Positions 4,151-8,300 of a stretch of DNA of 22,306 nucleotides are shown here, in pieces. The notes beneath the pieces are model-generated. The model saw only the letters and a program-made list of their open reading frames with translations. It had not been told where the DNA came from and searched no databases. This stretch comes from a virus, in the IMG/VR virus record IMGVR_UViG_3300020165_000170, positions 1-22,306 of that record, one strand, 5' to 3'. Positions within the stretch are counted from its first letter, which is position 1. Each line of letters opens with the position of its first letter. The translations under genes were made by a program, and so were the position numbers.

Positions 4151-6253
4151 TTAAAATTTACCTACTACTTCACTAAACTCTACACCAGTACGAACCGCAA
4201 CAAAGTTTAGAGTAATGAAGTTGATTGATCTGGCTGGTTTGATGTAAATATCACCAATAAATTCATTTCGGTCTATAACCTCACCAGTATTATTTGTATC
4301 ATCAGCGACCACTCTAAAGTCAAAAATACCTCTACGACCTTGAACATCTCTCAAGAAAGGTTCAATAAGATTTCTGAATTGCGCTCTTGTAAATTCATCG
4401 TTGAACTCAAAGAGAGAGAACTTAGCAGCAGTTGAAATAGCTTTTTCCAAAACCAAGAACAACCTTCTCACATTGATTCTATCAAATGCACTGGGTTTTG
4501 CCAGAGCAGTTTTATCACCAAACAGAACCACACCTTGGCCTGGAAAATCAACAACAGGATTAACTCTTGCTCGATAAAGTTGATCTCTTTCAGATTTTTT
4601 AGGGTTATATGACAGTTTAATTGCGCCTCTAACATTACCTCTATTGAAACCAGCTGGTGAGAACCAAGGGTCAGCGACATTATCAGTGAAACAACACAGT
4701 CCCGCAGTATCGCCATTCATTGGTACAAATCTGAAAACATCATTGTACTTATCATACATTTGTTTGTAAGAACTATCAAAAACAACATATGATGAAGATG
4801 GACAAAGATCAAATGCATCAACGACATTCTCTGTAGCAGTGATAGAACTTGAAACACCTACGGTTGCAGAACGGTATGGCGAAAGGAATGCAACGCAATC
4901 TCTTCTTGTTTCTACGAGTGCAGTTAACATAGTAGCATGTGTATCTTGCGTGGATGCTGTATCACCAGAACCACCACCTCGACCACCAAGAATAAGATTA
5001 ACATCAAGTGACTCTGTATCTTCAAAATTATCATAAGCTATTTCAAGTTCACCAGCAGTTACTGCATAGTCATCAGTACCATTTTTGAGATTTGTTGTAG
5101 TTGGTGTGTCAAGTGCCGCATATGAAGTACCACCTGTTTCTAGTTGAATATCGCCATTTTCATCTTCATTTGAAGTACCAGTAGCGTCAAGAACAATATT
5201 GTCTCCAGCATTTGCACCAGCACCATCAGTTCCACCGTCTTCCATGACGATCTGACTTGTTTCACCAGTGAAGTCTGTACCCCAGTTTGCTCCAGCTGTA
5301 TTGTGATCCATCCAATAAACAAAATTGGAAGTTCTAAAAATTTTATCTGCATAATAAACACTATCACCTTGGGGTGATTTACCATTTGGATTCTTAGAAA
5401 GATTTGCAAATGTCTCTAAAACAGCATTCGTTCTATTTCCATTACTTTCTACAGCAAATCCATTGATTTCTCCAAGTTGATCATATACAACAATATGAAG
5501 CTCATCATTGGTGCCTCTTTGGTTTTGCGTAGCATAATCTGATGTGCCTGGAGCTTCATCAAATAAATCATAAAATCTCCAGCGGCGTCGAATACTTGTA
5601 GCAGTAGAAATCGTACTTTGAAGACCAGCACCATTTGGATCATCTTTTAGTTTAATCGTAATGGTGGATGCATCAGCGGCAGTAACTTGATATTCAAATC
5701 CTCTTGCTTCTCCAAAGTTAACAATATCATGGATTGTGAAAGCTGTACCATCTGTTACACTAATAACTGTTTGTCCAATAGCTTCTTCGGCACTTGTAGT
5801 TGTTACAGCAGTCTCTTCAAATGCAGTTGCACTAGGACAAACTGAAATACCAATAGAATTTCCCCATTCACCGGCAGTTCTTGCAGCCCATTCACCAACA
5901 GAACCTTGCCCATCAGCAAAAGAATCTTCGTAATGATCATCATCTCTAATGATGAAAGATGTTCCAGATGCAATAGCATTTGTAACACCAGATTCGCACC
6001 GAACAATTTTAAGTTGGTCTGAATATTGAAGAAAATTAGCAGCAGTAAAAAATGTTTCAAACTGATTTGAATCACCTTGAGGTTTTCCAAAAACTTTTAC
6101 TAAATCATCTTCTGTACCAATAGTCACAATTGAATTGACTGGGCCCTTTTGAAAGGCACCAGCAATAGCACCAATAGTTGTTGGCACTGATGGGACGATT
6201 GTTGTGAGATCGATCTCTCTTACATGAACGCCAGGAGACTTTAAAAAACTCAT
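4151..6253 (-). CDS. 18: Contractile tail sheath protein gp18
   Basis: A 700-residue sheath subunit (T4: 659); it polymerises on the gp19 tube and contracts at injection. The N-terminus SPGVHVREIDLTTIVPSVPT is the usual sheath start, and the C-terminal domain carries IYIKPARSINFITLNFVA, nearly the T4 sequence, after a stretch resembling FDFRVVADDTNNTGEVIDRN. The middle (about residues 130-450) is an expanded, surface-type region; residues 332-375 contain the repeat-like MEDGGTDGAGANAGDNIVLD and IQLETGG, related to repeats in other virion proteins here. It is the first gene after a perfect late promoter and has a strong AAAGGAG site seven bases before the ATG. Confidence 0.97.
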   Translation of the reverse strand: MSFLKSPGVHVREIDLTTIVPSVPTTIGAIAGAFQKGPVNSIVTIGTEDDLVKVFGKPQGDSNQFETFFTAANFLQYSDQLKIVRCESGVTNAIASGTSFIIRDDDHYEDSFADGQGSVGEWAARTAGEWGNSIGISVCPSATAFEETAVTTTSAEEAIGQTVISVTDGTAFTIHDIVNFGEARGFEYQVTAADASTITIKLKDDPNGAGLQSTISTATSIRRRWRFYDLFDEAPGTSDYATQNQRGTNDELHIVVYDQLGEINGFAVESNGNRTNAVLETFANLSKNPNGKSPQGDSVYYADKIFRTSNFVYWMDHNTAGANWGTDFTGETSQIVMEDGGTDGAGANAGDNIVLDATGTSNEDENGDIQLETGGTSYAALDTPTTTNLKNGTDDYAVTAGELEIAYDNFEDTESLDVNLILGGRGGGSGDTASTQDTHATMLTALVETRRDCVAFLSPYRSATVGVSSSITATENVVDAFDLCPSSSYVVFDSSYKQMYDKYNDVFRFVPMNGDTAGLCCFTDNVADPWFSPAGFNRGNVRGAIKLSYNPKKSERDQLYRARVNPVVDFPGQGVVLFGDKTALAKPSAFDRINVRRLFLVLEKAISTAAKFSLFEFNDEFTRAQFRNLIEPFLRDVQGRRGIFDFRVVADDTNNTGEVIDRNEFIGDIYIKPARSINFITLNFVAVRTGVEFSEVVGKF
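5129..5257 (-). repeat. LLLEDG-type protein repeat segment within gp18
   Basis: Gp18 residues of about 332-375 read as three consecutive units: IVMEDGGTDGAGANAGD, NIVLDATGTSNEDENGD and IQLETGG. Each starts with a hydrophobic triplet plus Glu/Asp, then Gly/Thr and an acidic Gly-rich linker. The same pattern is found in gp14, the 153-residue protein, the DUF4815 protein and the right-edge protein. It lies in the variable outer region of the sheath, so surface exposure is likely. Confidence 0.55.
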
Positions 6254-6292: not shown

Positions 6293-6300
6293 TATTTATA
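6293..6300 (-). promoter_or_regulatory. T4-type late promoter for gene 18
   Basis: The minus strand carries an exact TATAAATA box, 39 bases ahead of the gp18 ATG. It would start a transcript through genes 18, 19, 20, 67, the small genes and 21. The leader contains the AAAGGAG ribosome site. It lies back-to-back with a plus-strand TATAAATA 43 bases away, making a divergent late promoter pair. Confidence 0.85.
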
Positions 6301-6326
6301 ATATCTGATTTCTTAAAACACCACTT

Positions 6327-6348
6327 TTATAAGTGTTATAACTTATAA
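6327..6348. repeat. 22-base inverted repeat over the plus-strand promoter
   Basis: TTATAAGT, a 6-base spacer GTTATA, then ACTTATAA: a perfect 8-base inverted repeat. The right arm overlaps the first five bases of the plus-strand TATAAATA box, and a second small dyad (CACTT-TTAT-AAGTG, 6323-6336) overlaps the left arm. As DNA it could be an operator for a dimeric protein; as RNA it would be a weak AT-rich hairpin without a T-run typical of terminators. In such AT-rich DNA chance dyads occur, so the function is inference. Confidence 0.5.
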
Positions 6349-6351
6349 ATA
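6344..6351 (+). promoter_or_regulatory. Plus-strand late-type promoter box before the HNH-like gene
   Basis: An exact TATAAATA on the plus strand ends five bases before the ATG at 6357. At usual late-promoter spacing, transcription would begin at or within a base or two of the ATG itself, so the message would have little or no leader. No ribosome-binding sequence precedes this ATG, which agrees with a leaderless start or weak translation. Confidence 0.6.
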
Positions 6352-6356
6352 AAATC

Positions 6357-6656
6357 ATGAATGAACACTATGAAAAATACAAAGAGACAATCAAAAAGGT
6401 TGCTCGTAGGAATTATCAAAAGAGAATTGTTCTACTAAATGATTTTTTGGCAGAACAATCGTGTATACATTGTGGAGAGAGTGAAACAATCTGTCTCAAG
6501 TTTCATCCATATGATTCACAAATTCGCAGACTAACAAAACGAGTGGGCACGAATAATGAAAGCAGAAAAGAAATATTTCATCTAATAAGCGAATCAAAAA
6601 TTCTGTGTTCAAATTGTTTTATCAAAGTTGATAACGATTTGATTGAATTTATATAA
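6357..6656 (+). CDS. HNH-like zinc-binding protein, probably catalytically degenerate
   Basis: The only plus-strand gene in the window: 99 residues, inserted between genes 17 and 18. The N-terminus (residues 1-30) is a basic helix of the kind that precedes small phage HNH domains (YEKYKETIKKVARRNYQKR). Then come CIHCG (Cys36, Cys39), CLKFHPYDS (46-54), and LCSNCF (83-88; Cys84, Cys87). This matches the CxxCG...LxFHHxDP...LCxNCH architecture of phage HNH endonucleases with a zinc ribbon. The four zinc cysteines, His50, Asp53 and Asn86 are kept, but the second His of the HH pair is Pro51 and the last His of NCH is Phe88, so nuclease activity is doubtful. It could be a decayed homing endonuclease or a DNA-binding regulator. 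Its stop codon abuts that of gp17 tail to tail with no base between. Confidence 0.8.
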   Translation: MNEHYEKYKETIKKVARRNYQKRIVLLNDFLAEQSCIHCGESETICLKFHPYDSQIRRLTKRVGTNNESRKEIFHLISESKILCSNCFIKVDNDLIEFI

Positions 6657-8300
6657 TTACCAGTTTGTGTTATAATCTCGTACTACAGTAGTCCACCGTG
6701 TTCCATATTCATCAATTTCATCATCAAGATCATCATCTACACCATTTAATATAAATCCAAATGGAGCCATATCTTGCTCTAACATATCTTGTTGTTCTTT
6801 CATCATAGTCATTCGTATATCATTATCAGTTAGTTCTTTGAAATATGTTTGATCTGTAGCCCAACCAAATATAAACATACAGGCAACCAAATCATCATTA
6901 CACCCATCATCTGCCGTGTATGACGAACCCTTACTAATGAAGGTTGACAATTCGTTGACACAATCATAATCCTCTACAATAAGTTTATTATCCTCAATCA
7001 ATTGTTTGAGATTTGAACATCCAATCTTCTTCACAGCTTTAGTTGTTCTTATCCCCAATTGCGCTCGACCCCCTGAGAAGCCCGCTCCAAGGACTTGGCC
7101 CGCTCTGCCACGCATGGAAGCCATAACTAGGTTGTCATACTCCAAATCAAACTGTAAAGCATTTGCGACCTGTTCCCCTATATCATTTACCTCAACCATT
7201 ACATATGCGTTGTTGTATGCCTTCGCAACTTCATGAATCTTGGTAGGAAACAGTAGTGGTTTAATTTCATTGTCTCTAAACTTTGCGACGATCTTATATG
7301 GTATCTCTGTAACATCAAATACTATAAATGCAGAATAATCATTTGCTGTACCTCTAGAAACGTCAGCAGTTAGCATATATGTGTGATTTTCTTCTGGACG
7401 AACATGAATATCTATCCCAACATTTGAATGAATGGGTGTTCTGTATGTAAGTTGTTTTAGTTTCATAGAACTTATTAGAGTGTCTATAGACCCCAGAAAC
7501 TCACACTCAAACTCTGAATTGAACTGTGATTGAGAGGTATTTCGTATTGTCTCTTCTTTCCAAACTTCATCTCTGCCGGGAACCTCACTCCAATGAACTT
7601 CTGTAGGAACATAATCATTCCTTTTTTCTTCAGCATCTACCCATATCTTATAGAACATGTTCATACCATGAGGCGTGGAAACAATAATAACTTTTGTACT
7701 TTGACCAGAGGTAATTGTAGGATAAACAGATGCAAAAAACTGTTCTGCAACATTAGAGGGAACGAAAGCAAACTCATCCAAGAAAATTACATTATAGGAA
7801 CCTCCTCGAATTGCACTTGAGGAAGTGGCTGCTGCAATAATTTTACTGCCGTTCTCTAACTCTATGTTACCTTTGTTCCAAGCTATGATGCCCTGTTGCA
7901 TCCATTTAGGGAGATTTTCATATGCGAGTTGTAATCTTGATAAAATATCTCTCGCAGTTGAGGACTTGTTTGCAAGAACAGCAATATTTACATTTTGATT
8001 AAATAGTGCATAGTGCAGAAGGTAGCTGATGATTGTAGTAGATTTACCAGACTGTCTAGGTAGTTTGAAGATACTAAATCTGTGGTCATGCATAGTAGAA
8101 ACCATGCCTCTTTGAAAGTCATACATCTCAAAAGGCACAAGACCTTCATCAAGTGAGACAATTCTTACATAGTTCTCAATAAAGTAAAGAGGGTCTTCAG
8201 CACACTTATGATATTCTTTGATATCATCTTTAGTAAACTCAACAGCAGTATTTGCTTTCTTGAGATTAGGATTACCCAGATATTGATTTTGGTCAGACAT
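6657..8300 (-). CDS. 17: Terminase large subunit gp17 (packaging ATPase and nuclease)
   Basis: The DNA-packaging motor: an ATPase that pumps DNA through the gp20 portal, and a nuclease that cuts the concatemer. It has 547 residues (T4: 610). The ATPase domain has Walker A LPRQSGKST (Lys86), Walker B NVIFLDEFAF (Asp175, Glu176) and the coupling motif IIVSTP (205-210). The RNase H-like nuclease domain has TADVSRG (Asp313), VEVNDIG (Glu370) and GCNDDLV (Asp469/470) as the metal-binding acidic set. All key residues are present and no intron or inserted gene interrupts it. It starts one base after the gp16 stop. The C-terminal tail is acidic (DDDLDDEIDEYG). The terminal TAA abuts the opposing gene. 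Confidence 0.98.
   Translation of the reverse strand: MSDQNQYLGNPNLKKANTAVEFTKDDIKEYHKCAEDPLYFIENYVRIVSLDEGLVPFEMYDFQRGMVSTMHDHRFSIFKLPRQSGKSTTIISYLLHYALFNQNVNIAVLANKSSTARDILSRLQLAYENLPKWMQQGIIAWNKGNIELENGSKIIAAATSSSAIRGGSYNVIFLDEFAFVPSNVAEQFFASVYPTITSGQSTKVIIVSTPHGMNMFYKIWVDAEEKRNDYVPTEVHWSEVPGRDEVWKEETIRNTSQSQFNSEFECEFLGSIDTLISSMKLKQLTYRTPIHSNVGIDIHVRPEENHTYMLTADVSRGTANDYSAFIVFDVTEIPYKIVAKFRDNEIKPLLFPTKIHEVAKAYNNAYVMVEVNDIGEQVANALQFDLEYDNLVMASMRGRAGQVLGAGFSGGRAQLGIRTTKAVKKIGCSNLKQLIEDNKLIVEDYDCVNELSTFISKGSSYTADDGCNDDLVACMFIFGWATDQTYFKELTDNDIRMTMMKEQQDMLEQDMAPFGFILNGVDDDLDDEIDEYGTRWTTVVRDYNTNW

Follow-up and report, generated by a model that had tools for sequence, protein, structure and literature searches.

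The window, i.e. the whole 22,306-nucleotide stretch of viral DNA analyzed here, contains a small open reading frame at positions 6357..6656 of the + strand, with an ATG start and a TAA stop, which encodes a 99-residue protein with a predicted nuclease-dead HNH fold (PHROG HNH, E 5e-5) and is the sole gene on that strand in the region. It lies antisense to both of its neighbors, namely the divergent gp18 tail sheath gene (4151..6253, - strand; PHROG 23, E 5e-126) and the convergent gp17 gene for the large terminase subunit (6657..8300, - strand; PHROG terminase, E 2e-64), the stop codon of the latter abutting its own. The frame and its antisense placement are exactly as given in the preliminary description of this DNA, as are the positions of C36, C39, H50, D53, C84, N86 and C87. 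The four cysteines make up two predicted zinc knuckles, C36-x2-C39 (6462..6473, + strand) and C84-x-N86-C87 (6606..6617, + strand); on the same strand codon 51 (6507..6509) specifies a proline at the place of the general-base histidine and codon 88 (6618..6620) a phenylalanine at that of the metal-ligand histidine of the NCH motif. The protein has a modest net charge of +3, and its AlphaFold2 model (mean pLDDT 84) starts with a long helix, continues with two beta strands and ends in another helix. Upstream of the ATG are a T4-type late promoter box, TATAAATA, at 6344..6351 (+ strand; -13 to -6 from the A of the ATG), a divergent copy of TATAAATA at 6293..6300 on the - strand, which is the late promoter box of gp18, and a perfect 9-bp dyad, TTTATAAGT-GTTATA-ACTTATAAA (6326..6349), which overlaps the gene's own late promoter and is a candidate operator.

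Profile and structural comparisons point firmly to HNH descent of this product. Profile-profile comparison using hhalign with intact phage HNH proteins, which are often tRNA-associated, gave a highly significant match (Prob 98.6, E 6e-16), 16 of 16 reference homologues matched phrog_2255, and a Foldseek search of the BFVD predicted viral structures recovered HNH endonucleases (best E 6e-4, probability 1.00, TMq at most 0.74). Fold and sequence searches of the PDB recovered no meaningful relative, the Pfam HNH model did not recognize the window protein, and no family name was obtained for it from either Pfam or NCBIfam. The beta-beta-alpha fold, the zinc-cysteine pairs and the core typical of HNH endonucleases are nevertheless all present, and in the HMM-HMM alignment with the LDFHHxD...SNCH pattern P51 pairs with the second histidine of HH and F88 with the histidine of NCH. 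This alignment and 178 distinct homologues bear out the proposal that HH had become HP and NCH had become NCF. The small phage HNH endonucleases of PHROG 2255/3106, often found beside tRNA genes (e.g. crAss001 gp8, PHB09_029 and wV8 gp50), share the same four-cysteine HNH domain and core spacing, but they retain HH or DH together with NCH, whereas both are lost in every member of the present family; most of them also bear an N-terminal zinc ribbon that is absent from it. A protein of Hafnia phage SarahDanielle (L227:595-942; DUF7390, Ounavirinae), annotated as HNH, carries F-I-P-F-D-E-A-V-R where the catalytic motif would be and lacks NCH, and is possibly a second, independent dead HNH family.

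The homologues were gathered by viral contig scans, one annotated-phage search and one genome-contig scan, the last contributing a single phage-like contig binned with a Flavobacteriales genome. These yielded 357 loci with a visible gp17/gp18 boundary, comprising 219 distinct gene sequences, which encode 178 different proteins; many of the loci are fragments, contigs overlap between scans, and the sequences are phylogenetically related. They fall into four groups, A (that of the window), B (Melnitz), C (L220) and D (L448), whose representatives are 42-66% identical to one another at the protein level. The four cysteines, E43, L47, R57, Y5, K7 and Y8 are invariant among the 178 proteins, and Asn86 is kept in 175. 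The preliminary description had asked whether P51 and F88 are fixed. Position 51 is proline in all 178, through four synonymous codons (CCT85 CCC50 CCA41 CCG2), so that the general-base histidine (the second residue of DH/HH) is uniformly missing. Position 88, in the final helix, is phenylalanine in just 44 and otherwise varied (W66 Y30 E19 R14 S2 D2 K1); it is never histidine, so that fixation applies to the loss of the metal ligand and not to the residue that took its place.

A nuclease with a shifted catalytic center might still be conceived, with, for example, His52 of a P-H-D motif as the base and the metal held by other residues, and the frequency of His52 (128/178) and the near-constancy of Asn86 lend this some appeal. 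Position 52 is, however, aspartate in 39 proteins and tyrosine in nine, the window phage among them, no histidine column is invariant across the 178 distinct homologues, and the metal-ligand position 88 is mostly aromatic; we regard such an enzyme as very improbable. His50, which had been named beforehand as a residue that could prove to be the true catalytic histidine, does not fill this role, because it is not conserved (Y in 131, H in 39, otherwise F or W, and never Asp). Neither His50 nor His52, both considered as alternative bases, is invariant. As His52 is the usual residue, Tyr52 of the window is atypical: P-H-D is the usual state of the motif and the window phage has lost one more histidine.

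Reading frames are intact in all 178 distinct proteins, and median pairwise dN/dS (Nei-Gojobori, same-lineage pairs with dS 0.1-1) is 0.10 in group A, 0.11 in B, 0.22 in C and 0.08 in D, which answers in the affirmative the earlier question whether the gene is under purifying selection. Taken with the state of positions 51 and 88 and of the cysteines, these values imply that catalytic loss was ancestral to the family as sampled and that the product is selected. The pattern is neither chance nor a private mutation, and it is far broader than one gene. A decaying homing endonuclease or pseudogene, the second of the two possibilities raised in the preliminary description, would account for the loss of both catalytic histidines and for a locus typical of free-standing homing genes. 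It is already refuted at the level of the family, and we give it practically no credence, by the 178 unbroken frames, dN/dS of about 0.1-0.2 with no sign of relaxed selection, the fixed zinc cysteines, promoter and position, the maintenance of P51 over four codons and the lack of any loss within a lineage. By these sequence measures the gene is a fixed and selected one.

The position of the gene is as uniform as its lost active site: at each of the 357 loci that bear it, the gene occupies the gp17-gp18 gap in antisense orientation, which extends to the whole sample the placement at the gene 17/18 boundary noted at the outset. In HTVC008M, Mosig, P-SSM2 and Syn30 the site is empty: the gap measures 56-113 nt and the gp18 late promoter directly follows gp17. 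In a TerL tree one edge parts the gene-bearing from the gene-free phages (support 0.91 for the absent clade, 0.99 for C+A+D and 1.0 for B), which is consistent with one gain or one loss. Two of the scans used gp17 as the query and are therefore independent of the dead-HNH gene; in these, the gene was present at 82 of 82 loci with gp17-tail identity of at least 65%, and none of the 50 loci without it reached 60% by a crude ungapped measure. Hence the family differs from free-standing homing genes on two counts. Patchy presence among close relatives was not observed, the gene being absent only in separate lineages, and an intact nuclease was not found, save for an intact-looking GIY-YIG part in two fusions described below. 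Among openly available papers, neither PMC9004378 nor PMC7029224, both consulted with this locus in mind, mentions an HNH gene.

Several further features of this locus were observed. Extra cargo genes in the gap usually lie on the gp17 side, and the dead-HNH gene therefore stays beside the gp18 promoter. Such cargo, found between the dead-HNH gene and gp17 in L034, L076, L077, L078, L127, L138, L159, L342, L343, L375 and L379, consists of long sense or antisense frames that by eye are transporter-, methyltransferase- or other accessory-like. The arrangement suggests a hot spot anchored by the dead-HNH gene. In the complete Melnitz genome the homologue is essentially the sole lone antisense gene of ordinary size. 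At L242/L448 and L243/L449 gp17 is 89% identical to that of the window, yet the dead-HNH allele is of group D, and in the TerL tree the carriers of group D alleles lie dispersed among those of group A; this dispersal suggests that alleles may have been exchanged at the gp17/gp18 locus. In the gene-free relatives L260-L312 (cyanophage-like), L086 and L087 the gap often has a sense gene of about 75-90 codons, whose product has two CxxC pairs and a YPDW end and resembles the zinc ribbon at the N-terminus of phage HNH proteins.

In T4 the first base of the late TATA box is at -13 with respect to the transcription start site (PMC2988020). Among 162 distinct upstream regions the [TC]ATAAATA box begins at -13 from the ATG in 146, at -15 in 14 and at -14 in one; the predicted transcript start therefore coincides with the A of the ATG, and the late mRNA of the dead-HNH gene is predicted to be leaderless. 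Most of the other late boxes that precede an ORF in Melnitz lie 24-70 nt before it, and two others are at 13 nt, upstream of L231:4812 and L231:12276(-) (Melnitz 54812 and 62276); leaderless late mRNAs may thus be a wider habit in this phage. In lineages A, B and D the gp18 late box stands 61-66 nt upstream of the dead-HNH ATG; lineage C has it at this distance in 13 of its 33 upstream regions, and 19 of the others have no exact match. Phages with an empty site have the gp18 late box and lack the second element. Sigma-70 promoter matches at the locus were no more frequent than in shuffled sequences, and no intrinsic terminators were found at the gp17/gp18 locus.

Superimposed on the dead-HNH late promoter is a 24-bp dyad, TTTATA-N12-TATAAA, which has the same offset in the four lineages. 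A scan for dyad symmetry at every offset has its maximum at -31 to -8 in all four groups, with lineage means of 7.8, 6.2, 5.1 and 6.6 paired positions out of nine vs about 2.9 in shuffled sequences. The -10 box is preceded, at exactly -18, by the element TTTATA (with A, G or T as its last base) in 92/100, 21/25, 13/30 and 16/17 upstream regions of the respective lineages; only about half of the lineage C sites have the dyad and the others a differently placed palindrome. The -35 region of T4 late promoters has no conserved sequence (PMC2988020), and among 25 late boxes of Melnitz the only one with the TTTATA element is that of the dead-HNH homologue itself. A position matrix run on the complete Melnitz genome finds one strong site (37 bits, the next being 12), and a regulon was accordingly set aside. 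Per-position counts back TTTATAnG half-sites. Covariation was not seen at dyad positions 7 and 9, which removes strict covariation over all positions, and support for strict symmetry therefore rests on positions 1-6 and 8; such a pattern would be expected of a site bound by protein and not of an RNA stem. An RNA hairpin was likewise rejected, as it is no stabler than shuffled sequences (z -0.95) and the dyad lies upstream of both inferred transcript starts. Alternatively, the upstream half-site might be an AT-rich feature of the promoter, or an additional, weak late box for gp18 that reads TATAAAA on the opposite strand.

That the product is a structural or RNA-binding late accessory, which for instance binds terminase or the gp18 mRNA, with the dyad unrelated to it, would agree with the strict gp17/gp18 linkage across lineages and with the late-type promoter. 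However, the phages with an empty site run the same kind of gp17 and gp18 without the gene, and the linked dyad would be left unexplained, making this an improbable account. The interpretation that we favor, though by a narrow measure of confidence, is that a homing-endonuclease fold devoid of nuclease activity has been domesticated as a DNA-binding autorepressor of its own late promoter. The preliminary description had offered a DNA-binding regulator as its other option, and this receives indirect backing from the invariant zinc cysteines and basic residues, the single-copy dyad and the fusions. In the proposed scheme an ancestral marine T4-like phage would have acquired a homing-endonuclease-like gene in the interval from the gp17 stop codon to the late promoter of gp18. 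The gene would be transcribed late, into a leaderless mRNA, and the zinc-stabilized fold with its long basic N-terminal helix would bind the dyad TTTATAnG-N8-CnTATAAA, probably as a dimer. One of the half-sites is at the same time the late -10 box of the gene, so that the bound protein would shut off its own promoter; this autorepression would limit antisense transcription into gp17, and the protein may in addition adjust the activity of the divergent promoter of gp18, some 50 bp away. The sequences themselves establish the ancestry, the loss of the catalytic residues, the purifying selection, the constant locus and the conservation of late box and dyad, while binding of zinc, binding of DNA as a dimer, repression, leaderless translation and the effect on gp18 are inferred.

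Two group C loci, L318 and L331, bear on what the domain might recognize. In each, a GIY-YIG domain that matches Pfam LEM-3_GIY-YIG just below the cut-off of that model (E 3e-5 in L318 and 5e-5 in L331) makes up the start of the ORF and continues in frame into the N-terminal end of the dead HNH; the simplest reading of these fusions is that the dead HNH part recognizes DNA. The L318 fusion is on the reverse strand of the gp17/gp18 gap. L331 has TATAAATA followed by an AU-rich inverted repeat, an AAGGAG Shine-Dalgarno sequence and a leadered start, while L318 is without the conserved late box and dyad. A nuclease-dead DNA-binder might have its target elsewhere: it could act in trans, on the DNA of the host or of competing phages, or shield the old homing site, as a protection or immunity factor. 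The homing ancestry, the site between structural genes and the two fusions fit such a site-recognition module, and L318 keeps the dead HNH though the conserved promoter and dyad are gone. We consider a distant target unlikely, given that the sole strong dyad match in a complete genome is at the gene's own promoter and that the offset of the dyad is constant across lineages with proteins only 42-66% identical.

The autorepressor interpretation has a precedent in I-TevI, the GIY-YIG homing endonuclease of the T4 td intron, which represses its own T4 late promoter via an overlapping operator (PMC2988022). The candidate operator of the dead-HNH gene is likewise placed, the dyad (-31 to -8) lying over TATAAATA (-13 to -6). 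I-TevI differs in being an active, intron-encoded nuclease that binds by a zinc finger and an HTH, whereas here the HNH is dead, the gene free-standing and the putative operator, with which binding is predicted from sequence, a dyad. By this analogy the dead-HNH protein would correspond to the repressing part of I-TevI, the nuclease part having been lost. Two other T4 genes treated in PMC2988022 invite comparison: segD, for which no promoter was found, is antisense between structural genes 23 and 24, and segF is depicted as a hybrid of GIY-YIG and HNH. That paper presents neither of them as a free-standing dead HNH domain under a late promoter of its own. Gene 200 of the methylophage Melnitz (QZI94926.1) is a direct homologue, 54% identical, and has the same locus, orientation and promoter dyad; it is annotated as hypothetical only, and the Melnitz paper does not mention HNH. 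What is new here is the predicted late promoter at -13 with its overlapping conserved dyad.

In its fullest form, which we put forward tentatively, the proposal is of a stand-alone, nuclease-free repressor made from a leaderless late mRNA, which limits itself and balances the divergent sheath operon across an entire lineage of abundant marine T4-like phages, and whose domain serves in rare relatives as the targeting arm of a GIY-YIG nuclease. The family offers a clean and testable case of a selfish DNA-cutting gene that became a fixed phage gene after loss of its enzymatic activity, with a catalytic loss that is universal and old, a frozen position and a specific predicted operator. It would add a family of small DNA-binding zinc proteins, now annotated as hypothetical, from phages that are very common in the ocean (SAR11/OM43-type), and would extend the idea of an endonuclease as autorepressor, known from I-TevI, to a protein that only represses. 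If this is true, the switch between selfish element and regulator may be traceable through the gain and loss of domains.
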